26,598 nt of DNA. Origin: a virus. How positions within the stretch are numbered: the stretch's first letter is position 1; each line of letters opens with the position of its first letter. Made by a program: the position numbers and the translations under genes. This document shows positions 3,740 to 25,542 of the stretch, one piece after another. The DNA lies in the IMG/VR virus record IMGVR_UViG_3300020731_000073, positions 1 through 26,598 of that record; one strand, given 5' to 3'. The notes under the pieces were generated by a model that did not search any database, was not told the DNA's origin, and saw only the letters and a list, made by a program, of their open reading frames with translations.

Positions 3740-6700
3740 TTAACTTCCGTAGGTGTAGCCGTAGCCGGGTGGTGCGGCTTCTACTGTATCAATCACTAGT
3801 TCACGATAGGGCTGTGTTGATGCGTAGTGCGTGACCTGAACATCAGTTTGGATAAAGACATAGCGACGCTCGGCTTCTACAGGGTCAATCAGGATTAGGG
3901 TTTCGCCTGTATTCAGCAGATTGAGGAAGTTAGGCCACTCTGCTTCGTTTTCCCAGATAACGGTGAGTTTGGAGTCACGGCCCTGAACCACACCAGCGAT
4001 TGTGTATGGTCGGCTAGAACCAAGTGGGTAGAAGATACCAACAGGGTGCTTCTGCGATTCCTCAACCTTGTTCTGAACGAGGATTGGGAAGCGTAGGGTG
4101 ACATCGCTAGAACTAGAAATCCACCAAGAGTTGACAGTAAGTTGGGTCGGCCCAAGTGAGGGTGAGGTCAATCCAGCCACAGGGGTAGTGGAGTCGTTGT
4201 TTGTAGAGGTCGCTTGGACACGATAGTAAATATTCTTGCTAGGCGAGCATTCGTAGTCATCTACATAGGCAACGCCCGCTGCTGAAATAGGCAGGTTCTT
4301 AGCCTTGCGAAGCGTGGTCCAATTCGTTCCGTTGTCTTCGGTTCGGTCAATCTTCACGGTATAAGAGTCGTTAGCCTCGTTGAGCCAGCCAGAGTTGTTC
4401 CAAGTAATTGCGGCCACATTCGTTCCGATTGCTTGTGGTGTTAGCACTTCTGTGGCCAATCCAGCGGCCGTAGCGGTCGCTAGTGAGCCGGAAGCGTGGA
4501 CATACCAAATAGGCGTGGTGAGTGGAACTGTGAGCGAGCCATCCCAGTTAGCGGCATCAATAATCACGGTTTCTTCGTTTGAGTTTCCATAGTCAAGAAC
4601 AATCTGACCTGAATCAGCCAAGTCATCAACATTGGAAAGGTTTACGAACTTCGCACCGATAAAGGTGGGCTCGGTTAGGGTAGCCGTGAAGTTTGGCAAA
4701 TCAGCACCAAGTTTTAGTTCGCGCGTTCCCTTGTCGTTGGTGGGGTCAAGAACCCATAGGGTCTGTGCGCCATCCATAGGCGTTGAGGCGGGAACGGCTA
4801 GTGAAGTTCCTGTTCCGATAGTGGGGTCACAGGCTGCTGAAATAGTCGGAATCGCACTATTCAGAACCGTGTAGTTGCTTGCCGTTCCGTCAATCGGAAG
4901 TGGTGGCGTCACGGCTTGGAACATCACATTGGAAAGGGCGTAGATATCACCCGGCACGACATTTGCCAACTGAAGTCGTGGACAAGCACGAGTCGCATTG
5001 ATGTAGAGCGAGGTGGGGCTCTGTGGCTGTGCTGTCACACGAGCGAGAATTGTGCTCGAGCCGATAGGCGTGTTTCCAATAGTCACTACTTGGACACCCT
5101 GACCAGTCGTGAGTGTCGTGCCAGCATTGATAGCCAAAGTGGTTGGTGATGGCAACGAGAATGTGCCTTGAGTGGTTGTTCCTGTGGAGTAGGCGAAAGT
5201 GGCATTGGTTGCTACTACAACTTGCGATGGTGCTTGAGCCACAATCGCTTGTGGGTAGAAAGCCTTGTCGCTCGTGGAGTTCGGGTTGGAGTTTAGGTCG
5301 AGGCCGACATTACAGACCTGAACGCCGAAATCTGCTGTAGTGGCAATAGGGCTAGTTGGGTCGTAGTGGGTCTTGCCATTACTTGTGCTGATAAAGTTGC
5401 CCGCCTCGTCATACCAGTCAATAAAGGCGTTAAAGGTAGGAACGGAGTAGGCGATATAGCCAGCAGTCGTCGATACGAGTGGTGCTGTGGTGGATACTGG
5501 TTGGCTCAAAGTTAAGGTCACATTGTCGCCAGCGATACCCGTGATTTTCGTTCCTGCTGAAATACCAGAACCGTTGATAGTCATACCTGTAAGCAGACCT
5601 GCTGGGGCTGTGGTGGAGAGGGTAAAGGTCGTTCCACTCGCAGAGGCCGCATTTAGGGCGAAGTAAGTGCTATTGATTGACTGAACGAAGCCAGCAAGCC
5701 CATACCAGCCAGAGGGCGTGACAGAAGCGGAGTTGGCACTAGACCAAGATAAACCATCATAGATTCCAATTTCGGTAGTTCCTGCCGCACCAGTCGTAGG
5801 AACTGATGGCTGAAGAATAAGTGGGTTGAGCAACTCTTCGCTACTCGTGAACTTGGTCGGTGCTGAAATAAAGACCGGCGTGTATTGAGGGAAGTCTGCC
5901 TTTGGTTGGAATGTTCCCACATAAACGATTCGGCTTCCTGCTGGCGTGACCGTCACTGGCGTAATCGCTGGTGGGGTTAGGTTGTAAGAGGGAGAACTTA
6001 AGGCAATATTGGGCGATAGGTTTGTTGCCGTTGTGCTAGCGGGTGTGCTGTAAAGGACATTTCCGGGGTTGGAAAGTGTCACGGCAAAAGTTCCGCCACT
6101 AGTGGTGGTGTTGCTAGTGATGCGAGTTCCCGGCTCGATACCGTCACCACGAATCGCCCAGCCCTGATATTGGTTAGCCGTAGCCGTGCCGGTCAAGGTG
6201 ACACTTTGGAAAATCTTTCCTGTCGTATTAGCCGTTGTGCCAGAGGTGAACGGAACGGTGTAGCCAGTTCCGGTCGGGCTAATGAGTTGGAGTATGTGCT
6301 CAAAGTTCTTTAGCGTGTAGGAAATCTCTACTTTTGCGCCAGTAAGTTTGTTGAAGCCAGTTCCTGCTGTTCCGCCAATAGTGAGGTTTGCGGATTCTAG
6401 GTAGTCGCCAACGCTTGTGTAAAGACCCTTAAACTCACCTTGACCGATTGTGTTCTTCTCGAAATAAACGATTTTGTTTGGTGATGGAACAACGGCTTGG
6501 TAAACCTGAATCTGCGTTCCTGATGGAATCTTAAAAGAAGAACTACTAAGTGGGCCGGTTGATTTGGTTCCGAACTTTTGGAAGTTCCAACCGTTTCCAA
6601 TAGGCTTGATGCTGAACGAAGTGTCTCCGCGCGTTCCGAGTGGAACATTTGGGCCGTGCCAATCAGCAGAAAGAGTGGCGGTCATCTTGCTTGACCCATT

Positions 6701-9700
6701 CACGAAACGAACTTGAGTTCCTGCCTTGATTAGAGCCTGTGTGCTGCAACCGTTAGTGCGGTCAAACAGACTTGCGGCACTTGAGTTCGTCATACGGATA
6801 GGAACGGTGCGTAGGTTCTGGTATTGGTATTTGATTGGGCTAGTGGAGACTAGATTCCTAAATCCAATAGCATCAGCAGTCGTCACGCCGAAGTCAATCC
6901 AACCGCCCTTAACTTCTGGCCCGGCGGCGTGGACACTAGCGATAGTTGCTACTTCGTAAAGATTTGACTGGACTACTTTGGTCGTTGTCTTGAGTTTCTT
7001 CTTCGACTTCTTTCCGCCAGTTCCACTTACTGCTAATTGTGCGACCGTAAAGTGGGTGTAGTAGACATTGATTTTCTTACCAGTTCCCTGACCGGGCGCA
7101 TAAAAAGCGTGGTGGGGGTCGTAAATCATCACCTTGAGTGGGTGTTCTTTGCTATTGCCCTTGAGAATCTGAAAACGAACTGGTTGGGCCGCGCTACCCG
7201 CACCAGTCTGAACATAGGAGTATTCGGGCTTTTTAGTGGTGTGCTCAATCTTTTCTGTCCACGACATCTTTGCCGTTGAGCCGTGATAGACAGGCGACTG
7301 AAGACCGAACGAAACATTTTCGTTTAGTGCGTGTGTCGAAAGGGAAGTTCCAGTTGGGCCAGACGGCACAGGGTAGTTGCGAGCCTGAATCGAATAGACA
7401 CCGCTAGTTGCTGTCTGCGAAACAGTCTGTAGCAAGACATTTTCACCACCACTAACAAGGCCGGTATTCGCATCAACCGTTCCGCCTATGTTGACCCAAA
7501 AAGTGCCAGATACAGGAAGACCAGCACCATTGATAGTGATGTTTCCCACTTGGCTAGTTGTGGTGATAGCCGTTCCTAACTTGGCATCAGTTCCAACAGG
7601 CAACTGGCTATAAATCTTTGTCTTGTCTAGTTTGGTGGAGATGTGTGTAGCCATAGCCCCCAACGAGACTTTCGTTCCTGCCGAGTCGGCACTAGTGGTC
7701 TGCCAGTTTCCCGTGCTTGTTGGGAAATCAGCATTATCCGAGGAAAGCAAGTTGTCGCTTGACTGAACAATCAAGTGGTTAATCGCATTATCACCATCGC
7801 TATAGACCGCCATCATTGGGAGTTGGGGTTGCGCTGGGTCAACTAAGAAGTGCTTGACATTCCAATCGCCAAACCAAGAGGCGTTTTGGAAAGACTTAGA
7901 TACCCGCACATAGGCGTAGTAAAGGGTGTTGTCCTTAAAACCAATAGAAGAGTCAATAAGAACTTGAGTTGAGTCGTCGTTTCCTATTTTTGACCAGACT
8001 GGTGTAGAAGTGTTTGGTGAAAAGCCAGCACTCTGATAAGTGGTTTCGTCAAAGACACGGACTTCCCATCCGTTCTGTGGGTCTTCGTCAAAGTCGCTGT
8101 ATTTCCAACCGATAGCGGGCGTTTCACCAGCCGAAAAAGTCACGGTGTCTGTTGGCTTGATTAGAACATCATCAACCGATGGGGCAGACCTAAAAACAAT
8201 GTGCATTCCGAGACTACGGAAAGCAACTTGCTTGCCCGGCGGAACGGCGGCCTGAATGTGCATCTGAACTCGTGAAAGGACATCGTGAGTCCACTCGACA
8301 TTGTTGGGGTCGTTTCCAAACAAAGAACCGAAGTGGGTCGTGTAGGCAACGCTTGAGTTGTTGGTGAAAGTGTCCTGCTGGGTTTCTGTCTTGTTAATAG
8401 GGTCGTAGAGTGAAAACAACTCTTTATCTAGACCGCCGTTCGCACCAAGCATTGTGTAGATAGGCTGAACCGACTGAACGCGCGCATATCGCCATCCGAG
8501 GCCGTCATACATTTGGAATTGGTTGAGGTCGGGTCGGTAGCAAATATCAGCAATATTTGGGTTTTGCGGCATCTGATACCAAAGAACTTGCGAACCCGCC
8601 GTGTGGCTATTAGCCATCTGCGTTCCAAGAAGAACTTGGTATGGGCCAGAGATATTGTCGGCGTTTAGCGAGACTGGTGCTGAAACTGGGTAAATCTTTT
8701 CTTGGAGATTGCCCGTGTCAATAGAAAGTTCGTAGGTCTTAACGATAGTAGAACTAGCGTTGTAAGCGTAGTTAGGCTGGAAAGACTTTACGGAAACCAA
8801 CTTAGAGCGCACCGTAGCGGCCTTGTCAACCTCAAGGAGTTGGCTAAAGACTGTGGTTAGAGTCGCCCCACTAGGAATAGTGAATGAGCCACTCGTCACG
8901 CTAACGCCAGTCAGGGTGCTTCCCGAAATACCTGTGTAGAAGACTTCTTTCGCTACTTTGTTGATAATTACGCTAAAAGTTCCGCTATTGAGCCAGTTTG
9001 TTGGGGGTGCGGTAAGGGTAATCGTTGTGGGCGTGGTGCTGATAGCCGTTGAGCCACTCGTGGTCGCCGTATAACTTTCTAACAGAACCAAGAAGTCGCC
9101 GGGCGAAAGTGGCTGCGCCAACTGAACCGAGATAATCGCGCCAACGGCATCGGTGTTCCCCGATTGGTTAAACGCACTATTCACGACTCCGTTTGTTCCA
9201 AAGTTCGTGGCGTTGTAGTTGTAGAAAGCGTAGAACGCGCTGTAGTAGGTGTATGAACTACCGACTGTTCCGAGGCTCGTGCTAACGGTAATAGTGAGGA
9301 CTGGGTTGATAGAAGTTGCTGAAATAGCGGAGATTGTTCCAATAGCCGTATCCGAGCCACTCGCAAAGATTTGCTGTCCAACGAATAGGTTGCCTGCTAG
9401 ATAACTAGCCGAACTGGCCGTAATAGTTAGGGTGCTTGCGGTCGTGACAGTAGCGGTGAACTTGCTATTGGCGACATTGATTACTGTGCTACCTGCTTGG
9501 GCGTCGGTAGCCAGACCACCGTTGCGAACGATTAGGTCTTGGTAGAAGAGGCCCTGCCGAATAGTTAGGGGCGTATCTACGGCGATTGAGTATGGAAGTG
9601 GTGAAACAGGAAGATAGGAGTAATTCTGGCCGTTCCCCATAAAGTTGATTCCTGTGCCAGTAAGGAAGAAGCGAGGAACTTCCAAACTAGTGTAAGAACT

Positions 9701-10390
9701 CTTGGTGTCTAGTGCCGCTAAGTGAATCGGTGTTCCGGCACTATAGATAGACCCTACGGTTATTCCTGCTGGCAAGTTGATAACAGCAGACGGAGTGCTA
9801 CCTGTGTTGGAGTTGTAGGTAATGTTGTAGGCCGTAAATGTCGCCGTGCCTATGGTGAAAGTAAAAGGGGCGGAAACTGGCAACTGGTGGGTTGGGTTAA
9901 AAGTGATTGTGGTGTCGCTAGAAGCAGTAGCCAACGAAAGGCGGCCGATTTCTGGCAAGGCAAAGTAGTTTGGATTAGCCAAAATAGCGGTCGCTGTTGG
10001 CGTAGAGGGGTTGTCGGTTCCCGAAACAGCAGAAGTCACGGTAAATGCCGTTTGTGTCGCGCTCGCAATCGTAAAAGTTCCGTTAAAGCCAGAAACGGCA
10101 GAACCAATAATTGTCACCGATTGACCGGCTACGAAAGAGTTGATAGCCGTGTAGGTGACTACTGTTCCACTACCAGAAATGCCCGTGATAGTTGTTCCGT
10201 TATTGAGGAACGGTGGAAAGATATCGGGGTATGAGGTGGGGAATCCGTAGCGACTCTCTACAACGATGCTCTCATCGCCAGCAGCCGAAGCGTAGGAGAG
10301 TTTGGTGTTGATATTGGGCTGACCGTTATTGCCGGTTGTGAGCCACGGCTTGTCGAAATCTAGGTAGGCGTCAGTGGTGATTGATGGCAT
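3740..10390 (-). CDS. Giant minor tail protein with FN3-like and repeated beta modules
   Basis: This 2216-residue protein is the largest in the window. The start follows an AGAGGA ribosome site. Most of it is Ser/Thr/Gly-rich beta sequence. A GQ-V-I-G module (near FVAGQSVTIIG) lies near the N-terminus. A domain around 7600-8500 contains DEDPQNGWEVRVFDETTYQ and looks fibronectin-III-like. A lysine-rich patch, KKSKKK, is encoded around 7000. Two G-x-G-I-x-x-G-T modules are encoded around 5470-5660 and 6020-6290. Near the C-terminus is another FN3-like stretch (SYTVKIDRTEDNGTNWTTL). The last 130 residues, with SSSDVTLRFPILVQNKV and PYRELVIDTVEAAPPGYGYT, resemble distal-tail/tip attachment domains. 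It lies between the tape measure region and the hub gene, so it is likely a tail-tip or side-fibre protein for host contact. The exact role is inferred. Confidence 0.72.
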   Translation of the reverse strand: MPSITTDAYLDFDKPWLTTGNNGQPNINTKLSYASAAGDESIVVESRYGFPTSYPDIFPPFLNNGTTITGISGSGTVVTYTAINSFVAGQSVTIIGSAVSGFNGTFTIASATQTAFTVTSAVSGTDNPSTPTATAILANPNYFALPEIGRLSLATASSDTTITFNPTHQLPVSAPFTFTIGTATFTAYNITYNSNTGSTPSAVINLPAGITVGSIYSAGTPIHLAALDTKSSYTSLEVPRFFLTGTGINFMGNGQNYSYLPVSPLPYSIAVDTPLTIRQGLFYQDLIVRNGGLATDAQAGSTVINVANSKFTATVTTASTLTITASSASYLAGNLFVGQQIFASGSDTAIGTISAISATSINPVLTITVSTSLGTVGSSYTYYSAFYAFYNYNATNFGTNGVVNSAFNQSGNTDAVGAIISVQLAQPLSPGDFLVLLESYTATTSGSTAISTTPTTITLTAPPTNWLNSGTFSVIINKVAKEVFYTGISGSTLTGVSVTSGSFTIPSGATLTTVFSQLLEVDKAATVRSKLVSVKSFQPNYAYNASSTIVKTYELSIDTGNLQEKIYPVSAPVSLNADNISGPYQVLLGTQMANSHTAGSQVLWYQMPQNPNIADICYRPDLNQFQMYDGLGWRYARVQSVQPIYTMLGANGGLDKELFSLYDPINKTETQQDTFTNNSSVAYTTHFGSLFGNDPNNVEWTHDVLSRVQMHIQAAVPPGKQVAFRSLGMHIVFRSAPSVDDVLIKPTDTVTFSAGETPAIGWKYSDFDEDPQNGWEVRVFDETTYQSAGFSPNTSTPVWSKIGNDDSTQVLIDSSIGFKDNTLYYAYVRVSKSFQNASWFGDWNVKHFLVDPAQPQLPMMAVYSDGDNAINHLIVQSSDNLLSSDNADFPTSTGNWQTTSADSAGTKVSLGAMATHISTKLDKTKIYSQLPVGTDAKLGTAITTTSQVGNITINGAGLPVSGTFWVNIGGTVDANTGLVSGGENVLLQTVSQTATSGVYSIQARNYPVPSGPTGTSLSTHALNENVSFGLQSPVYHGSTAKMSWTEKIEHTTKKPEYSYVQTGAGSAAQPVRFQILKGNSKEHPLKVMIYDPHHAFYAPGQGTGKKINVYYTHFTVAQLAVSGTGGKKSKKKLKTTTKVVQSNLYEVATIASVHAAGPEVKGGWIDFGVTTADAIGFRNLVSTSPIKYQYQNLRTVPIRMTNSSAASLFDRTNGCSTQALIKAGTQVRFVNGSSKMTATLSADWHGPNVPLGTRGDTSFSIKPIGNGWNFQKFGTKSTGPLSSSSFKIPSGTQIQVYQAVVPSPNKIVYFEKNTIGQGEFKGLYTSVGDYLESANLTIGGTAGTGFNKLTGAKVEISYTLKNFEHILQLISPTGTGYTVPFTSGTTANTTGKIFQSVTLTGTATANQYQGWAIRGDGIEPGTRITSNTTTSGGTFAVTLSNPGNVLYSTPASTTATNLSPNIALSSPSYNLTPPAITPVTVTPAGSRIVYVGTFQPKADFPQYTPVFISAPTKFTSSEELLNPLILQPSVPTTGAAGTTEIGIYDGLSWSSANSASVTPSGWYGLAGFVQSINSTYFALNAASASGTTFTLSTTAPAGLLTGMTINGSGISAGTKITGIAGDNVTLTLSQPVSTTAPLVSTTAGYIAYSVPTFNAFIDWYDEAGNFISTSNGKTHYDPTSPIATTADFGVQVCNVGLDLNSNPNSTSDKAFYPQAIVAQAPSQVVVATNATFAYSTGTTTQGTFSLPSPTTLAINAGTTLTTGQGVQVVTIGNTPIGSSTILARVTAQPQSPTSLYINATRACPRLQLANVVPGDIYALSNVMFQAVTPPLPIDGTASNYTVLNSAIPTISAACDPTIGTGTSLAVPASTPMDGAQTLWVLDPTNDKGTRELKLGADLPNFTATLTEPTFIGAKFVNLSNVDDLADSGQIVLDYGNSNEETVIIDAANWDGSLTVPLTTPIWYVHASGSLATATAAGLATEVLTPQAIGTNVAAITWNNSGWLNEANDSYTVKIDRTEDNGTNWTTLRKAKNLPISAAGVAYVDDYECSPSKNIYYRVQATSTNNDSTTPVAGLTSPSLGPTQLTVNSWWISSSSDVTLRFPILVQNKVEESQKHPVGIFYPLGSSRPYTIAGVVQGRDSKLTVIWENEAEWPNFLNLLNTGETLILIDPVEAERRYVFIQTDVQVTHYASTQPYRELVIDTVEAAPPGYGYTYGS

Positions 10391-10398
10391 AGGGTCCT

Positions 10399-13300
10399 CT
10401 AGATATTCTGCGCTATCAATGCCGTAGATGATGTCGCACTAGTTGTAGTGCTTGTATCTGGCGAGCCAATAACAGGGGTATCCGCACCGTGGTCGTTCGT
10501 TAGCGGATTGGTGTAGCAAAGGATATTTGGGGTGAAAATAGGCTCACCGGCGTAGTGGTCGAATCGGAAAGTGTTGCCGGGAACCAAATCCCAAACGATA
10601 GGAACATTGTTTAGCGAGCCATCCACGCCGACATACGAGCCCGAAAGCAAAACGGCTTCTTGGGTCTTGCCCGTTCCAATAATCGCCACGCTCACATCGT
10701 TGGCGATATCAGCAGTTAGGTTCATAATATTGCTCGAAAATGTGACATTCTCGACTCCACTAATAGTGGCGTTGTTAGAGATAGAGATTATTCCAGCAGT
10801 GGGTAGCCCGGTAGATGCGACTACATAAGGTGCAACGACAGAAGTGACTACAGAACCGCTAGGGATTCCCGTTCCCTGAACCAACATACCTACGATTACG
10901 CCCGTGACTGACCCATAGGTGTTCGCGCCAGCCAAAGTCGCAAGTTGGTTGCCTCCGCTAGAGAGCGTGAGGTTTAGGGATACCGAAGTTTGGGCTGGTG
11001 CTGGGCTTGCGATAAACGAGGTGGAGACTCCACCCATCACATCTGAATAGAGGCTTGAGGTGTAGCGAGAGCCAATCTGGTCAGCGTTGAGGGCTTCCAA
11101 ATCAGCAGCCGTATTCGACCCAATCCAACGCTGTCCGAGGATATAAGAGCCGACTGTAGTTCCGGCTAAGTGAACGCCACCGATAGTTCCATTCTGTAGT
11201 GAGACTACGCCGCTACCCGTTCCATCGTAGTTTGCTGCTGAAAGCGAAGAGCCGAGTGGGATAGTCCAAGCAAGGTAGAAAGGATTGGTGTTTCCATTGG
11301 CAAGCGTTGGCGACTGCTCGACTTCCCATAGATAGATGTAGTTCTGACTATCACCGTTGTAATAGGCGTTTTGTGCTGGTGCGTAGTTATCTAAGGAAGA
11401 GTTGTTGATGTAGAAAGAGTTGGTGCTATCTGTTGGGATACCAGTCACCTGCCAATACGGCGTTGGCCCTGAAGTCAAAACACTAGTATTCCAGCGCGCA
11501 CCCTCGCCACGGAAAGTTAGGTAAAGGCTCTTGCCACTATTAGTCGCTTGGGTATAGAGGCTAGAGATAGTGGAGTTGTTATCGCAGGTCACTAACGCCG
11601 GTGCTGATATGACGGTGGCGGTCCAAGTCGTGCTAGTCGTGCTAATAGGATTACTTACATAACCTATTAAAGCCGTGGTGTCGACATAGGTGAGGTAGCA
11701 AGTGCTAGATGTGACCCCAGCGCCAGACAAGAGAAGTACGCCCGTGCCAGAAATCATATTGCTTAGAGTTTGTGCGTCTGATGAGGATAGGTTTATCAAC
11801 TCATAGTTAGTGACTGGTTGGCCGTGGCGGTCGATAATCGTATTGGCATACCCTGTTGCTTGGAAATTAAACGGTGAGGTGATACCCGTAGTACTCACTA
11901 GCGAAATGCTTACGAACGAGGCTACCGGCGTTGAGCGATAAGTATCAATCGTTCCGGTGAAAATAAGGTTTTTTAGATATGGATAGAACCATATGTTTGA
12001 GCCTGTGCTTCCATAGAAACCATTTGTTTCATCTCCAAGCGAAACCATATTGGCTGTTCCTGTTAGTGCGCTCGGCGTTGTTGTGGATGTCGTGGCAACG
12101 ACAAAGTTGGTGCTAGTAGTGGAGACAATCTGGTAAATACCCGCATATAAGGAACCAGATATATTTACAGAAACCGTTTGACCCGCCTTAAAAGAGTTGG
12201 TGGCGTTAAAGGTGAGTTGTCCGCCCGAATAGGTGACACTAGTGATGTTCGCTTTCGTTCCGATAGAGTTCGCACCTAGAGGTGATGGGTCAATAGAGGA
12301 ATAGTAAGGGGGCGTTGGGCCTAAGACTACGGAGTAGGTGTTATTTCCCGGTGTGGTGACTATGCCCTTGTAGCGTTGGTCGCCATCCGAGAGCATAATG
12401 ACATCTCCTACCGACACGGTTTCCGATGGGCCAGTACCAGAATAGGAAAGGGGTTGTGCGAGGGTTGAGTTTGTAGCAATAACAAACGAAGCAGGTGAAT
12501 ACGAAGTAGGTAAATTGACTGCGGAGATTTCGCTAGAGAGGATTTGCGCTCCCAAACCAGAGTTCGTGGCACTAAGCACATAAACATTTTGATTTACGAT
12601 AGCCGTGATAGGTGCGGTGACTGTTCCGGCGACTGTTGGTGCGCCGACCGTTGAGGTGAAAGTAAAGGTTAGGGCAGAGGTGTTGATAGCCGTAATCGTG
12701 TTAGTTCCCTGAAGCGTTGCCGTTCCAGCACTAAGGGTCGCACCTACCTGTGGTGGCTGACCCGTGTAAGTTCCCATTAGCGAGCCAGCAGAGACATTGA
12801 GGGTTGATGACCTAGTGGCCCAAGAAGATACGCCGATAGTGGTTGCCGACGAAGTGGTTGACACAACAACGGAGTTGACCGTTCCAATAGCCAAGTCTGC
12901 TGAAACGCTAGAAGCAAAGATAGGTGTGTAAACAGTTAGCGTTGAGGTAGTGCTTACGGTCGCCGTTGTGTTGATAACAAGGTTGCCCTGCGTTGCCGTA
13001 GTAGCCGTTCCGACTACAGAAGCAAAGTAGTTTTGGATAGTTCCCACCGTGTTAAAGAACGATGCTGAAACCTTGTTGCCGCCCATAATCGTTCCTACGG
13101 GCTCGTAGGTTTCCAAAGTAGAAGCCGTTGCTACAACGGTGTTGCTACCAGAGGTGGCAGTGACGGAGAAAGTCGCCGTGAGGTTTAACCAGTTTGCCAC
13201 TATTGGGTTTTGGAAAGAAAGGGTTGTGTAAGTTCCCGAAATAGGCAAAGTTGCGGTCGTGCTAGTGACCCCACTAATAAGACCTAAGTAGTCGCCCTTG

Positions 13301-13986
13301 GCATCAAAAACCATTTGGCCGGGTTGCCACGAGCCGACTAGTGGTGTGTTCCCATTGGGGCCGCTATTAAAGACCGAGATTTGCGTTGAGGTTGTGGAAA
13401 CCACATAGTCGTATGTCCAATCGGGAACGATTCCCGTGATTTCAGCAGTAGGCGTTCCGCCCGAACAAGTAAAGTAAAGGCCTTGATTCATTTCGTTTCC
13501 CACATTGTATGGAGAAGAAATAACGGAAGAGTTTGTAAAGTTTGCATTGGTAATTGACTGCGTGATAGGGATTTGACCGGCCGAACCCACAGTTCCCCAC
13601 TCTGAATAAAAAGCAGGGGAGTTCTGCTGACTGTCGCCTTCCAAAACAACGACTTTTTGTGTAGCGGCGAAACCACTCGTGTCACTTACATAGATAAAGC
13701 CATCGCCGGTGTAGGTGTAGTTTTTGGCCGCTAAATACCAAGCACCACTTGGCACATAGGCGTATGGGGCTACTTGCGTATCTTGCGAAAGGCTTGTAAG
13801 GCTTGTAAAGAGTTTGGTGAGGTTATCTACGTGGACTTGGTAGATATTGGTATCAGCAGTTCTGATTGCCGTACAACTAAGGCGAGTTGTGTCGTTTTGT
13901 GCCGTTGCCCCATCGGGCGCGCCATTGATTACCCAATATCTAGGGTCGATATTTGCTGAAGTCGGAGTGGCGGTCAGAGTCTTCAT
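10399..13986 (-). CDS. Large Ser/Thr-rich beta minor tail protein
   Basis: This 1195-residue protein follows the tape measure gene and precedes the 2216-residue protein by only 8 bases. It starts MKTLTATPTSANIDPRYWVI, with an AGGG ribosome site upstream. The first 150 residues look like a folded domain (IYQVHVDNLTKLFTSL, PYAYVPSGAWYLAAKNYTY). Much of the middle is low-complexity Thr/Ser/Val beta sequence. It carries the same GQ-V-x-V/I module as the next protein (SFKAGQTVSVNISG, encoded about 12030-12265) and a GTGIPSGSVVTSV module near the C-terminus (about 10740-10960). No enzymatic motif is visible. Position argues for a tail-tip or decoration protein. I cannot assign a named family. Confidence 0.68.
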   Translation of the reverse strand: MKTLTATPTSANIDPRYWVINGAPDGATAQNDTTRLSCTAIRTADTNIYQVHVDNLTKLFTSLTSLSQDTQVAPYAYVPSGAWYLAAKNYTYTGDGFIYVSDTSGFAATQKVVVLEGDSQQNSPAFYSEWGTVGSAGQIPITQSITNANFTNSSVISSPYNVGNEMNQGLYFTCSGGTPTAEITGIVPDWTYDYVVSTTSTQISVFNSGPNGNTPLVGSWQPGQMVFDAKGDYLGLISGVTSTTATLPISGTYTTLSFQNPIVANWLNLTATFSVTATSGSNTVVATASTLETYEPVGTIMGGNKVSASFFNTVGTIQNYFASVVGTATTATQGNLVINTTATVSTTSTLTVYTPIFASSVSADLAIGTVNSVVVSTTSSATTIGVSSWATRSSTLNVSAGSLMGTYTGQPPQVGATLSAGTATLQGTNTITAINTSALTFTFTSTVGAPTVAGTVTAPITAIVNQNVYVLSATNSGLGAQILSSEISAVNLPTSYSPASFVIATNSTLAQPLSYSGTGPSETVSVGDVIMLSDGDQRYKGIVTTPGNNTYSVVLGPTPPYYSSIDPSPLGANSIGTKANITSVTYSGGQLTFNATNSFKAGQTVSVNISGSLYAGIYQIVSTTSTNFVVATTSTTTPSALTGTANMVSLGDETNGFYGSTGSNIWFYPYLKNLIFTGTIDTYRSTPVASFVSISLVSTTGITSPFNFQATGYANTIIDRHGQPVTNYELINLSSSDAQTLSNMISGTGVLLLSGAGVTSSTCYLTYVDTTALIGYVSNPISTTSTTWTATVISAPALVTCDNNSTISSLYTQATNSGKSLYLTFRGEGARWNTSVLTSGPTPYWQVTGIPTDSTNSFYINNSSLDNYAPAQNAYYNGDSQNYIYLWEVEQSPTLANGNTNPFYLAWTIPLGSSLSAANYDGTGSGVVSLQNGTIGGVHLAGTTVGSYILGQRWIGSNTAADLEALNADQIGSRYTSSLYSDVMGGVSTSFIASPAPAQTSVSLNLTLSSGGNQLATLAGANTYGSVTGVIVGMLVQGTGIPSGSVVTSVVAPYVVASTGLPTAGIISISNNATISGVENVTFSSNIMNLTADIANDVSVAIIGTGKTQEAVLLSGSYVGVDGSLNNVPIVWDLVPGNTFRFDHYAGEPIFTPNILCYTNPLTNDHGADTPVIGSPDTSTTTSATSSTALIAQNI

Positions 13987-20965: not shown

Positions 20966-21391
20966 CTACTCAAAGTGGAGAGTCGTGTTGTATCCGTTTA
21001 GGCCGTTCTCGTCATAGTTGTTTTCCACATACATAATGATTGGGTGCTTGAGAATTGGCTGGGTCTGGTTTGGAACTGTGACTCGGCTTTCTGTGGTGAT
21101 ATTTGGGTAGAAGCCAGTTAGGTAGGCTCGACCCGAACTGTATCGGTCACGACCATCCATAGAGGGCATCACCTTAATCTCGTATTCCAAACGACAATTG
21201 TAAGCGACCGATGGGCCGTATTCCACCGTGCTATCGCTAGTTCCGTCTGTGCCTACATAGTGGCGACCATAGCCGTCTAAAACCACAGTTCCCTGACTGC
21301 CTTGGTTTGGAATAATATTCTCAACCAGAATCGTCTGGGTCATCAAAGCAACTAGGTCTGGGTCAATCCCAAAAGACGAAATATCGCTCAT
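20966..21391 (-). CDS. Head-tail stopper / head closure protein
   Basis: This 141-residue protein starts at an ATG overlapping the TAA of the adaptor gene (TAATG). It opens MSDISSFGIDPDLVALMTQT, has strands around TILVENI and GTVVLDGYGRHYVG, a central CRLEYEIKVMPSMDGRDRY, and a C-terminal HPIIMYVENNYDENG. Position between adaptor and gp10-like protein is that of the head closure or stopper protein, a small beta barrel. Sequence conservation in this family is low, so the call depends mainly on gene order, size and the beta pattern. Confidence 0.72.
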   Translation of the reverse strand: MSDISSFGIDPDLVALMTQTILVENIIPNQGSQGTVVLDGYGRHYVGTDGTSDSTVEYGPSVAYNCRLEYEIKVMPSMDGRDRYSSGRAYLTGFYPNITTESRVTVPNQTQPILKHPIIMYVENNYDENGLNGYNTTLHFE

Positions 21392-21912
21392 TAGCCGATG
21401 TCTTCCTGAACGACCTCAACAATGGTTTCTTGGATTTCACCAGCGATATCAAGAGGGTCATAGTTGCCAACGCCATAAGTCGAGGTGACACCCGTGACAG
21501 AGTTGGTCGGCCAAGCGTTCGGCTCGGCGTAGTAGGGGTCCATAAAGCCAACCTTGAGTTCCGCACCGAGGGCGCGTGGGTCGGCGTTCGCTGATGGTGG
21601 GGCAACTCGGCGTGAACGGATAAGCAAGTCTTTCGCCAAGCGCTCGTAGCGTTGGGCTCGGTCGCCAAGTGATTTGCTGATAGACAGACCACCGACGCTC
21701 TTGCTCTCACTTTGGGCTGCGCCAGTGAAGAAAGCCGCAAGGTTAAAGCAAGTATTAGAAGCGGCTCGGTATGGCTCGTTGTTGACCTCGCCTAAGTTAA
21801 AGTAGATTTCTTCGTCTTGAACGATTTGGTTGTCAATGTTCGTATCGCCAATGAGGTAGCGAACCGTGTCTTTTGGTGATGAGCCGGGGTTTGCGGAATA
21901 AGTCCAAGACAT
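21391..21912 (-). CDS. Head-tail adaptor (connector) protein
   Basis: This 173-residue protein has AAAGGA upstream of ATG 21912. The N-terminus MSWTYSANPGSSPKDTVRYL followed by IGDTN and QDEEIYFNLGE is the well-known adaptor pattern (SP-D-VR-LIGDT, then L-DEEI). The helical core follows with AASNTCFNLAAFF, VGGLSISKSLGDRAQRYERL and a basic LLIRSRRV. About 45 C-terminal residues extend the family core and end acidic (EIQETIVEVVQEDIG). The protein forms the ring under the portal. Neighbouring genes continue the neck in the normal order. Confidence 0.88.
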   Translation of the reverse strand: MSWTYSANPGSSPKDTVRYLIGDTNIDNQIVQDEEIYFNLGEVNNEPYRAASNTCFNLAAFFTGAAQSESKSVGGLSISKSLGDRAQRYERLAKDLLIRSRRVAPPSANADPRALGAELKVGFMDPYYAEPNAWPTNSVTGVTSTYGVGNYDPLDIAGEIQETIVEVVQEDIG

Positions 21913-21921
21913 AGTTATCCT

Positions 21922-22263
21922 TTACATTTGGGCGAAGTCAAACTTGATTGACCCCGTGAGAATACGCTGCGCCCCGCTAGAAGTCTGCGTTGCGGTGATT
22001 TGGAAATACCAACGACCAGAGGTGAGGTTGACCAACTCGTTGTCAGCCCATACAACCACTAGGTTTGATGAGCCATTAGTGCTGGTCAGGCCGTAAAAAC
22101 CGCTAGTTTTCGTGACCTGAACTGGGTTTGGTGGCTGGGCGATTTTCATCACAAAAGTCCAACCTGTGCTGAAATCAAGGGGTGTGCCACTCGAATCCAA
22201 CCAGAGAAAGTTAGCGTTCGGCAGTGAAGCGGCGGGCGTTGGGTATTCCAAAGTGTCGGGCAT
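21922..22263 (-). CDS. Small beta-sandwich virion protein, BppU-N-like
   Basis: This 113-residue protein is coupled to the repeat gene by TAATG. It reads as a single beta sandwich: ANFLWLDSSGTPLDFSTGWT, TFVMKIAQPPNP, TNGSSNLVVVWADNEL, GRWYFQITAT, QRILTGSIKFDFAQM. The pattern (strand with D-S-G-T-P-x-D-F-S, F-x-x-K-I, W-x-x-x-E-L, G-x-W/Y-x-F-x-I) resembles the N-terminal domain of baseplate and fibre attachment proteins such as BppU. It could serve as a docking domain or a head or neck decoration. The similarity is by eye; the exact role is unknown. It is the first gene between the accessory block and the neck. Confidence 0.65.
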   Translation of the reverse strand: MPDTLEYPTPAASLPNANFLWLDSSGTPLDFSTGWTFVMKIAQPPNPVQVTKTSGFYGLTSTNGSSNLVVVWADNELVNLTSGRWYFQITATQTSSGAQRILTGSIKFDFAQM

Positions 22264-23510
22264 TAGGGGTTATTCCATTTCCTCTCGGTAAACAAGGATA
22301 CGTCGTCCTCTTGGAAAGTCGCATTGGCCGAAGATTCCTCAATGACTGCTTGGCCGTGTTCTTGGCTAGTCACGCTATTTACCTCTTGGTCAATAAAGGT
22401 GTTGTAGTAATCCTTAAAGATAATTGGCGAGCCAATAATTAGCGGTACGAGAACTTTTATCGCAACTGTGAATTGCTTGAGTGAGTTATTACCCAACTCG
22501 GTAATTGCGCGCGACCGCACATCTTCAGCAGCGAGTCGTAAGGCCGCCGAAGCCGCAGCGAGGCGAGTTTGGAACTTGACACTCGAAGTCTTTTGCGTTA
22601 GGTTGGCCGAGCCAGACTCCGTGCGAGCCTGTGACCTTGTGGAAGATAGGGCTTGCTTTTCAGCAGAAGAACCAGAACGAATAATCGCCCTAGCCGCCGT
22701 TCCGACAGTAGCCATAATCGTTGCGTTGTAGGCGAGTTTGGAAATAGCGCGCTTGGTAATAGAGGTGGAGACTTGCGTGAGGGATACGGCAGAGGTCGAT
22801 GCTTTGCCCTGCGACTTGGTGGAACTAACGGCTTCCTTTTGGGAAGTAGAGCCAGACCTAATAAGTGTCTTGTTTGGCACGGCAATTTGGGTTAGGATTT
22901 CAGCAGTTGAGGCGAGTTTGGAAACCCCTCGAGCGCGCAAGGAAGTAGTTGCCTGAACGAGCGAGATAGAAGAAATCCCAAAAAGACCAGAAGATTTGGA
23001 AGAAGTAGACTTTTCGACCAGAGCCGTAGCCCCAGCATCCGAGCGGGTTTGCGACCGACTAGAGGATTGGCTCTCTATTTCAGCAGCCGAAGCAGAACGA
23101 ATCTTTCCTTGACTCTTGACCCCATCCGTGATGAAGTAGGTGGCTTCCAAACCAGTTTTATTGGTGGATTTGCTAGAAGCACTCCTTTGTGCCAATAGGA
23201 GACTAGCGACTTGCTCTTTGTAGAGGTTTTGGGATTTGGAAGATACCGCCGAAAAAGTAGCCAGAACCGAACTTGTTGGGTTATTGGCTGTGACCTTAAA
23301 TTGGGTTTGGAAAGCGTAAAGTGCAACCGAACTAATCGGGTTATTGGCAGTCGTCTTGGTATCAACGGTCTGGTCGAGTGCTGAAACGATACCTACTACG
23401 GAATAGACCTTGCCGATAGCACCATTGGCGTAAAGGCCACTAAAGGCCGTATCACCACCGCCGTTGTAGAGAGTTGAGAAGGCTCCGTAAGTCTGGGTAG
23501 TGACGGGCAT
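22263..23510 (-). CDS. 20-residue tandem repeat virion protein
   Basis: This 415-residue protein has an AAGGGG ribosome site before ATG 23510. Residues 1-50 are unique (MPVTTQTYGAFSTLYNGGGD). From about 51 to 350 the sequence falls into 15 consecutive blocks of exactly 20 residues with no gaps, for example TKSQGKASTSAVSLTQVSTS (231-250) and TRSQARTESGSANLTQKTSS (291-310). Residues 191-250 and 251-310 form a 60-residue higher-order repeat at about 40% identity. TANNP-SSV also recurs exactly 20 residues apart (near 55 and 75). Composition is rich in Ser, Ala and Lys/Arg. The C-terminus (351-415) is different and acidic. A beta-solenoid or fibre is likely. I recognise no family; position suggests a virion protein. 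Confidence 0.8.
   Translation of the reverse strand: MPVTTQTYGAFSTLYNGGGDTAFSGLYANGAIGKVYSVVGIVSALDQTVDTKTTANNPISSVALYAFQTQFKVTANNPTSSVLATFSAVSSKSQNLYKEQVASLLLAQRSASSKSTNKTGLEATYFITDGVKSQGKIRSASAAEIESQSSSRSQTRSDAGATALVEKSTSSKSSGLFGISSISLVQATTSLRARGVSKLASTAEILTQIAVPNKTLIRSGSTSQKEAVSSTKSQGKASTSAVSLTQVSTSITKRAISKLAYNATIMATVGTAARAIIRSGSSAEKQALSSTRSQARTESGSANLTQKTSSVKFQTRLAAASAALRLAAEDVRSRAITELGNNSLKQFTVAIKVLVPLIIGSPIIFKDYYNTFIDQEVNSVTSQEHGQAVIEESSANATFQEDDVSLFTERKWNNP
22413..23360 (-). repeat. 60-bp coding tandem repeats with 180-bp higher-order copies
   Basis: The region encodes about 15 units of 20 residues. The DNA is diverged, but some words recur at repeat spacing. TTTGGAAA occurs at 22737 and 22917, 180 bases apart, and TTTCAGCA at 22898 and 23078, also 180 apart. 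GGCGAGTTTGGAA occurs three times (about 22562, 22731, 22911), the first in a different reading frame from the other two. Confidence 0.75.
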
Positions 23511-23528: not shown

Positions 23529-24224
23529 CTAGTTGCTCATCAACCAAGTAGGTGTGACTGTCAGGGTGTCGTTTACGGCTAGAACTGGCGTTGAGGCATC
23601 AGCAAAGTTGGCGGCGTAAAGGAGTTTTCCTGAAGTTCCACTAGCAACTGTCGTGATGAAGTAGCCGGTTGAAGCAGTTGACCAAGCACCTGTGGCGGGG
23701 CCGAAAGTCACGGCAGTAGCGACAGTCTTCTGACCGCTTACGGCATCACCAATCTTGATAACCGCCGAAGTCGTTGCCGTTGCGGGGGCGTTCAGAACGA
23801 TTTGCGAAGAACCGGGGAGTGCGGTGATTACGAACAGGGAAGCCGCACCAGAACCCTGTGCGCCACCAGTAGCACCAGCGATGTCAATGCTCATACCTAC
23901 GGCGAGGCTTGCGTAAGTGCCGGTGGTGAAAGAGCCGACAGCAATCAAGTTGGAAGAAGTGACCGAACCGTTGAGGGTAGAAGCAGCAAAGGGTGTTGAC
24001 CAGATAGTTGAGAGGGCTGGTGCGCCGAACGAAACAGCCTTGCGAGCATAGCCAGAGCCAGTCTGCTCATACCAAGCCGAGCCAACTGCTGAAAGAGTCG
24101 TGGTGGCCGCTGGGATAGTTCCCGTAAAGAGGCCGATATAAAGCGAAGAGTAAGTCGTTGGGCTTGAGGTGATGACCTGATTCAGTAGGACATCAAGACC
24201 TTCGTTGATAAATACCTGTGCCAT
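23529..24224 (-). CDS. Virion protein with split beta fold and inserted module
   Basis: This 231-residue protein has AGGAG just upstream of ATG 24224, inside a possible hairpin. N-terminal MAQVFINEGLDVLLNQVI is followed by SSLYIGLFTGTIP, WYEQTGSGYARKAVSFGAPA, and later AVTFGPATGAWSTASTGYFI and GKLLYAANFADASTPVLAVN. The pattern of YIGLF-TG, SGYAR-x-x-V-x-F, V-TFG-ATG-W and G-LLY is known to me from short phage fibre- or decoration-type virion proteins, though I give no family name. Between the halves (about residues 88-160) lies an inserted Gly/Ala-rich beta module related to those in the tube and tip proteins. Its place in the accessory block suggests surface decoration or fibre attachment. 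Confidence 0.7.
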   Translation of the reverse strand: MAQVFINEGLDVLLNQVITSSPTTYSSLYIGLFTGTIPAATTTLSAVGSAWYEQTGSGYARKAVSFGAPALSTIWSTPFAASTLNGSVTSSNLIAVGSFTTGTYASLAVGMSIDIAGATGGAQGSGAASLFVITALPGSSQIVLNAPATATTSAVIKIGDAVSGQKTVATAVTFGPATGAWSTASTGYFITTVASGTSGKLLYAANFADASTPVLAVNDTLTVTPTWLMSN

Positions 24225-24263: not shown

Positions 24264-24291
24264 CACAAGATTTGGAAAATCTAGACTTGTG
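24264..24291 (-). other. Nested inverted repeats over the glycosyltransferase stop codon
   Basis: CACAAG (24264-24269) and CTTGTG (24286-24291) are complementary. Inside, AGATTT (24268-24273) and AAATCT (24277-24282) flank GGA, which includes a TTTGGAA copy. The repeats span the TAG of the upstream gene. No U-run follows, so a classical terminator is unlikely; a processing or mRNA-stability hairpin or a protein site is possible. Confidence 0.4.
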
Positions 24292-25525
24292 CGCCTCGCC
24301 ACCCGCCAAAGCGTTCTTCGCCCTTGACTGCTATGAGATTTGCTAGCACATAGGAGATATTGTGCTTCTGGTGAAACTCCGATGGGAAGTAGGTTAGGAG
24401 TCGGCTAGTTTGGAAGTCCATCTTGAGTTCTGGCACGAATCGGCGGAAGTTCTCGTCTATGAAATACCAAAACGAGTTTTCGTTGTAGAACGAATTGTGG
24501 GTCGGGTCTTGGAAAGCACCCCTACCGTCAGTCGAGGGCGTAATGCTCAAAACCATACCCCCATCAGCCAAAACACGATACATTTCGTTCCAAAGACCAA
24601 TCTTGTCTGGTATGTGCTCGAGGAAATCAGCAGCCCGAATAACGCCCACCGAGTTGTCTGGCATACTTGCCAAAACATCAAAGATATCGCCAACGATATC
24701 GGCATCGTGTAGGTCAACAGTTTGGAAGCCGGGCTTGGGATTGTGTGCTCCGCCCAAATCTAGAGCGCGTAAATGGTTGTCTCCGGCCCATTTCAGCAAA
24801 AGGTCGGAGATATAAATGTTGTACAACTCCAAAGTTCCGGCTTGGATTTTGGGGTTGATTTGGGGGTCGGCCTGTGTCTGATTCGCGTGGATACGCTGTA
24901 GATACAAGTTCTCCTTTATGTGGTGGAACTTGGTCTGTAGGTAGAGGCGACACATAAGGTCTTGGTCATCAAGGATTTCCAAACCGGGGTTGTACCCATT
25001 AGCCGAGTCGTATGCCTTACGAGTAAAGGCTCGTAGGTGATTTGGGGCGAACCAGATAAGGGAGATGTGGTGGGGGTGTGGAGATTTGGAATTGGTTATG
25101 TGGTATCCGTCTTCATCACGATACGACCATCCAAACCGAGAATCAAACTCGTTAAAGTTTGGAGTTCCGTCTTCGTTGATTTGGGCGAAATCCGAATAAA
25201 CAAAGCCAACTTCGGGGTTTTCAGCAAACGCCTTGGCAACTTTTTCCAAAGTAGTCGGCATCAACAGGTCATCGTGGTCTAGTTCCAAGAGGATTTCACC
25301 ACTACAGAGCGATACGGCTTCTGCCTTGAGTGCACCTACGGCCTTAGTCTCAACCTTTGACTGAACGATTTTTACGCGCTCGTCTGGTTTGGGCGCTTCC
25401 CACTCTGCGCCGTTATTCAGCAGAACTACCCATTCCCAATCCTCATACGATTGTGTTATGAGGCTTTCATAGGTTTCGTTGAGCCACTTTGGGTTGTGGC
25501 TGGGTGTGAATACTGAAATGGTCAT
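24281..25525 (-). CDS. Family 2-like glycosyltransferase fused to SAM methyltransferase
   Basis: I choose ATG 25525 (MTISVFTPSHNPKWLNETYE), 414 residues; a GTG three codons earlier is possible. Residues 1-235 form a GT-A glycosyltransferase: a typical first strand and Asn/Pro loop, the nucleotide-sugar/metal site ELDHDD (81-86) and a catalytic-base-like LDDQDL (185-190). Residues 250-400 form a class I methyltransferase: motif I ALDLGG (254-259), VDLHDAD (270-276), and DFLEHI (300-305) followed by EMYRVLADGG. The two activities would add a sugar and methylate it, or act on related steps. Actinophages are known to glycosylate capsid and tail proteins with glycosyltransferases encoded near structural genes, so virion proteins are the likely acceptors. 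Substrate and sugar are unknown. Confidence 0.87.
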   Translation of the reverse strand: MTISVFTPSHNPKWLNETYESLITQSYEDWEWVVLLNNGAEWEAPKPDERVKIVQSKVETKAVGALKAEAVSLCSGEILLELDHDDLLMPTTLEKVAKAFAENPEVGFVYSDFAQINEDGTPNFNEFDSRFGWSYRDEDGYHITNSKSPHPHHISLIWFAPNHLRAFTRKAYDSANGYNPGLEILDDQDLMCRLYLQTKFHHIKENLYLQRIHANQTQADPQINPKIQAGTLELYNIYISDLLLKWAGDNHLRALDLGGAHNPKPGFQTVDLHDADIVGDIFDVLASMPDNSVGVIRAADFLEHIPDKIGLWNEMYRVLADGGMVLSITPSTDGRGAFQDPTHNSFYNENSFWYFIDENFRRFVPELKMDFQTSRLLTYFPSEFHQKHNISYVLANLIAVKGEERFGGWRGAQV

Positions 25526-25542
25526 AAAGACCACTCTAGCAA

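Follow-up and report, generated by a model that had tools for sequence, protein, structure and literature searches.

The locus described here raises the question as to what kind of protein an uncultured freshwater phage encodes between its capsid genes and its neck genes, in an open reading frame whose product is largely laid out as consecutive 20-residue units. The stretch of DNA analysed, referred to as the window, is an IMG/VR virus record of 26,598 nucleotides; the repeat gene and its parts lie in it as follows.

22263..23510, (-) strand: repeat protein, 415 aa, a complete ORF including the stop, with homologues that fill this slot on about 24 distinct viral contigs
23361..23510, (-) strand: N-terminal head, residues 1-50, with a YNGGGxTxFxGLY motif common to most family members
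22461..23360, (-) strand: array of 15 units x 20 residues (residues 51-350), delimited by autocorrelation and PSSM; residues 131-318 are modelled as a beta-solenoid
22263..22430, (-) strand: conserved C-terminal tail, residues 361-415 plus the stop, modelled as disordered and ending TFQEDDVSLFTERKWNNP

BLOSUM autocorrelation of residues 51-350, scored against 300 shuffles, peaks at lags of 20 (z = 6.7), 40 (6.2), 60 (10.6), 80 (8.7) and 100 residues (5.0), all other lags staying at |z| < 3. A 20-column PSSM places 15 units starting at residues 51, 71 and onwards to 331, each spacing being exactly 20 with no slip, which bears out the original prediction of some 15 units of 20 residues keeping their register from residue 51 to about 350. 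The repeats had also been called exact; this holds for their length, which is always 20, but not for their sequence, the identity between pairs of units averaging 20% (maximum 45%; shuffles 9.8 +/- 0.6%). The 60-residue higher-order repeat proposed at residues 191-250 and 251-310 is likewise present, with 38% identity between its two copies at the protein level and 52% at the DNA level. TRF detects no tandem repeat in the DNA of the gene, so the repeats are old. Within the unit, basic residues occupy positions 2 and 8, Glu, Gln or Leu positions 14 and 16, and small residues positions 3, 5, 10, 13, 18 and 20, a layout for which the earlier description as alternating small and basic residues was roughly right.

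The repeat protein belongs to a family that shares this period, occupies a fixed genomic slot and evolves fast. Its relatives were located by using two neighbouring genes, those of the head-tail adaptor and of the 113-aa protein, as queries and then reading the gene in the same slot. The immediate neighbours in the window are the following.

21391..21912, (-) strand: protein in the head-tail adaptor position, phrog_1732, marking the start of the neck genes and syntenic with the Arthrobacter phage gp that comes before the head-to-tail stopper
21922..22263, (-) strand: 113-aa protein, phrog_1084 (unknown function), directly downstream of the repeat gene, whose stop is overlapped by its start; a likely partner
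23529..24224, (-) strand: 231-aa protein with a likeness to Pfam Gp80 (podophage GP4 fibre I); its gene lies immediately upstream of the repeat gene at 13 distinct loci, and it is a likely partner

In nearly every case the slot holds a diverged homologue, of 164 to 1095 aa. The family thus collected comprises 28 proteins (about 24 distinct) of roughly 3 to 20 units, each encoded immediately before the 113-aa gene; in every member whose locus extends that far, this gene is the next one downstream. Nearly all of 17 diverse slot proteins display the 20-residue period, which is weakest in the short members L013 and L018. Pooling 209 units yields a consensus of about x[KR]S[RV]A..[RK].[SG]AVA[EL]V[QE].TTS, and family-wide 244 successive unit spacings are exactly 20. 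When 1,740 ORFs are scanned with the repeat PSSM, scores of 28-171 are obtained for slot proteins and of no more than 8.4 for shuffled ORFs, and ORFs of any other kind do not exceed 25; six members outside the PSSM training (L078, L086, L100, L104, L150 and L166) score 41-107. Repeats taken from two disjoint sets of members align with each other at 97% probability (hhalign, E 2.5e-11). The repeat protein is 46% identical to its counterpart in L006, while three neighbour genes there are at 82-84%; it changes faster than its neighbours, as expected for an exposed part. Adaptor relatives at 35-45% identity (L108-L136) are without the repeat. Near a distant adaptor relative, other phage proteins at L130:9373-10977 and L131:9698-11635 show a weaker 20/40-residue period and the look of a right-handed beta-helix. 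At L165:6555-6992 (+), on a contig that has the 113-aa gene and a run of genes judged by eye to look like dioxygenases, the repeat-gene slot holds a 146-aa protein without repeats.

Searches of Pfam, PHROGs, 50,697 phage records and the PDB sequences gave no convincing relative of the repeat protein, and no cultured phage carries the gene. Within these collections the earlier statement that no described family has this pattern holds, and no confident match to a known repeat family, which would have spoken against it, occurred. Viral scans with the repeat protein or its close alignment matched only itself and its nearest relatives, PDB profile searches returned one match at E = 0.77 with the full-length profile and none with the C-terminal profile, and Pfam gave no match to collagen (G-X-Y) or to the YadA stalk in the repeat protein or 17 relatives. 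Several candidates were set aside: phrog_1890 was matched at E 0.004 to 0.012 by single members with no match in related records, which points to chance; a match to the repeat protein at E = 0.8 in the phage collection was rejected; and the Pfam entries Saf-Nte_pilin, DUF7024 and ACI44 were each matched by one or two members, probably through composition. A genome scan gave one weak adaptor match, in a Bacillota MAG, that is uninformative on the host.

In terms of fold, the first indications come from the units themselves. Among 214 successive unit pairs, 12 of the 40 top covarying column pairs lie at spacing 2 (p 1.5e-10) and 1 of 40 at spacing 3, kinship among units inflating such tests though not specifically at spacing 2; the leading pairs include columns 4-6, 12-14, 6-8 and 2-4. 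The hydrophobicity profile of the repeats shows periodicity at 2 residues and hardly any at 3.6. Spacing-2 covariation and hydrophobicity together are, at the level of sequence, a beta pattern with two strands per unit. Supplied with 29 family rows, AlphaFold2 models residues 131-415 with a pLDDT of about 80 over 131-270 and about 70 by residue 310, and puts one 7-residue strand at positions 3-9 of the unit and another at 13-19, which matches the covariation; this is a monomer prediction with a pTM of 0.54, two of the five models being much poorer. A single-sequence run (pLDDT 36), the sole folding of residues 1-130, was uninformative and its helices were set aside. Compared with parallel beta-helices by VIA-align, the family-alignment model reaches Z up to 16.5 over 189 residues at 2.3 A; as Foldseek searches of PDB and BFVD with the same model yield nothing at E < 0.04, which is not significant, these matches bear on fold class and not on kinship.

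A beta-solenoid fold is predicted for residues 131-318, with covariation as agreeing evidence. The original prediction had proposed such a fold or a trimeric fibre and named a disordered or helical model as the outcome that would count against it: the solenoid gains support from AlphaFold2 with the family alignment, from lag-2 covariation and, for fold class only, from VIA-align, and residues 131-318 are modelled as neither disordered nor helical, whereas residues 321-360 come out as a low-confidence helix and residues 361-415 as disordered. Residues 311-350 fit the repeat PSSM, yet much of this segment falls within the modelled helix. A repeat family absent from Pfam and PHROGs now has a unit consensus and a predicted fold.

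The best reading overall, given about an even chance of being right, is that the repeat protein forms the solenoid shaft, variable in length, of a virion appendage whose anchor probably lies near the neck. About 15 coils of 20 residues would wind into a narrow, rigid single-chain beta-solenoid rod, each coil consisting of two 7-residue strands and two 3-residue turns, with small residues mostly on the inner strand face and basic or acidic ones on the outer. The usual rise per beta-solenoid coil being 4.8 A, the rod would be some 7 nm long. Most phage fibres are trimers, which favours, as does the presence of fibre genes next to the repeat gene, a beta fibre of three intertwined chains (a triple-stranded beta-helix, a beta-prism or similar) in which each unit forms one rung and the monomer solenoid is an artefact; the beta pattern and the whole-unit length changes would fit such a trimer equally well. 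However, AlphaFold2 with the family alignment gave a confident single-chain solenoid, and in both strands the odd positions are occupied mostly by small uncharged residues, as in a self-contained core, so that the trimer is considered possible but on the unlikely side.

On the single-chain reading, the solenoid shaft would be flanked by a short head at its N-terminal end and by a conserved, flexible tail at its C-terminal end. Nearly all members end in some version of the motif F-x-[DE]-[DG]-G-V-S-S-Y-x-E, and most start with a motif like NGGG..F.G. Family members differ in length by whole coils. The window protein, at 415 aa, is 20 residues longer than those of L006 and L008 (395 aa each), and alignment gaps measure 20, 20 and 20 residues between the window protein and L008 and 20, 20, 22 and 20 between L019 and L086; unit-sized gaps are favoured by aligners in periodic proteins, total length differences being independent of the aligner. 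The shaft would change its length through the gain or loss of whole coils, and inserted or extra N-terminal domains are present in some relatives: L012, L014 and L016 have about 530 additional N-terminal residues and L009 and L022 inserts of about 150 residues, the extensions and inserts tested having no Pfam match. Across the family, nature offers rods that range from about 3 to 20 coils.

The gene order (capsid, fibre block, repeat protein, 113-aa protein, adaptor, neck, tail), read from the window together with fuller related contigs, confirms the position between the capsid side and the neck that had been assigned to the gene. The fuller contigs have a scaffold-like protein and a major capsid protein (phrog_1005), the nearest cultured relatives of the latter being mainly Arthrobacter phages at about 50%, and then the fibre block, with collagen-like proteins and the GP4-fibre-I-like protein; next comes the repeat gene, followed by the 113-aa gene and the adaptor. 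The Gp80 match of the GP4-fibre-I-like protein scores 22.6 bits in the window, under the cut-off of 27, and 30.6 and 31.6 bits, over it, in the homologues L185 and L187. After the adaptor, the window continues with neck genes, the major tail protein and the tape measure; no sheath is recognised among its genes and the phage is therefore likely a siphophage. Past the tape measure, positions 3740-10390 and 10399-13986 (-) encode Thr/Ser-rich proteins of 2216 and 1195 aa without PHROG match, probably tail-tip proteins. The presumed tape measure protein at L184:8810-13315 (+) has a 40-residue period. Inside the fibre block, positions 24281-25534 (-) of the window encode a 417-aa GT2-methyltransferase fusion, which adjoins the repeat gene or sits one gene off in 9 loci (homologues so placed are found in L006, L008, L018, L022, L030, L041, L044 and L045) and may modify Ser/Thr-rich virion fibres.

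Gene position and the likeness to the LSH1 module discussed below suggest that the repeat protein, probably an undescribed kind of virion fibre, is located in the virion; conservation of the tail, together with analogy, suggests C-terminal anchoring near the neck. The C-terminal tail would dock there, its putative partners being the 113-aa protein and the GP4-fibre-I-like protein, while the more variable N-terminal side would point outward and make contact with the cell surface or with other surfaces. Where a gene lies does not settle where its product sits in the virion, and collagen-repeat fibre genes share the block; the protein could be a tail or side fibre attached to the tip or shaft of the tail, its gene simply lying within the fibre block. 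This is judged improbable, since the flanking partners are the 113-aa gene before the adaptor and the GP4-fibre-I-like gene, and the GP4 fibril is reported to be at the collar (PMC13243795). A disordered Ser/Thr-rich linker, glycosylated by the nearby GT2-methyltransferase fusion and repetitive through low-complexity drift, would suit shafts with 19-33% Ser+Thr, an enzyme gene adjacent or one gene off in 9 loci and the single-sequence pLDDT of 36, but it is very improbable, as it is ill-suited to the strict 20-residue register of about 24 proteins, to spacing-2 covariation and to unit-sized length changes, and the remaining loci examined, several of them truncated, yielded no such enzyme. If the neck-fibre reading is true, the family would represent an overlooked kind of appendage in aquatic siphophages.

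Among known folds, the predicted model shares the solenoid class with the parallel beta-helices of tailspikes and pectate lyases, with which the VIA-align scores were obtained; those are right-handed with three sheets, whereas the model has two strands per strict 20-residue coil, and Pfam detects no catalytic domain in the repeat protein or its relatives. Judging by the model, the nearest fold analogue is curli: CsgA has coils of about 20-23 residues with two strands and two turns, a variable number of coils, and small or hydrophobic residues facing inward with polar ones outward (PMC10192328). In contrast to CsgA, the unit columns of the window family lack the Asn...Gln ladder motif. The Curlin repeat profile (N-$-Psi-$-Psi-$-Q, twice per coil) has no Pfam match in the family, four members having been searched at E up to 10 and 18 at 0.01, and no curli secretion gene is present among the window's genes.

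As regards attachment, the neck fibres of Anabaena phage A-1(L), gp80-82, sit on a gp5 pentadecamer (PMC10966104), phage 7-7-1 has a pentadecameric collar, and the fibril of Ralstonia phage GP4 is reported at the collar (PMC13243795). Pentadecameric rings bearing neck fibres in A-1(L) and forming a collar in 7-7-1 make a neck site plausible for the repeat protein. The likeness to A-1(L) and GP4 lies in appendages anchored at the neck or collar, and a GP4-fibre-I-like gene adjoins the repeat gene; however, in A-1(L) the neck fibres consist of globular trimers strung into chains rather than of a solenoid, and neither system has a sequence link to the repeat protein.

The closest described system to the repeat-protein module is gp34-gp35-gp36 of Alishewanella phage LSH1, a three-protein module found in the virion by mass spectrometry (PMC13243795). 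Here the C-terminal part of gp34 is beta-helical, poorly predicted and continued by a disordered tail, gp35 has its match in the GP4 fibril, and gp36, of about 110 aa, is a small protein with an Ig fold; the authors work with the model virion-gp36-gp35-gp34, and they wondered about an unrecognised repetitive motif (PMC13243795). LSH1 and Slicko01 proteins carry lyase-like N-terminal domains (PMC13243795). Relatives of the module occur in Slicko01/Slickus01 (OQ508956, OQ508957), sequence comparisons being made with Alishewanella phage Slicko01, where a 1843-aa "hypothetical protein" (L192:3572-9100 (-)) has z of 8.7, 7.7 and 7.6 at lags 20, 40 and 60 and alternating hydrophobic positions in its repeats. 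No mention of this 20-residue period was found in the LSH1 paper (PMC13243795); the repeat offers an explanation for the poorly predicted part beside the gp34 domain, a puzzle of that paper.

The two modules resemble each other in composition and geometry, kinship not being detectable. The adjacent trio of a beta-helical, a GP4-fibril-like and a small protein may have its counterpart in the window, where the GP4-like and 113-aa genes flank the repeat gene, and a 20-residue period is found in the Slicko01 relative as in the window protein. However, the module follows the lysis genes in LSH1 and precedes the neck genes in the window. The repeats are not homologous to those of Slicko01 (hhalign probability 0; no PSSM match) and the partners not detectably so, hhalign giving no support for the 113-aa and 231-aa families. 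A broader synthesis, offered tentatively and rather unlikely to be right in all its parts, would make the window protein a single-chain, curli-like two-strand solenoid acting as the shaft, variable in length, of a fibre that is anchored at the neck and has its polarity reversed, with the anchor at the C-terminus and the payload at the N-terminus, its 20-residue coil having arisen at least twice, here and in Slicko01/LSH1, as a common solution for this appendage.
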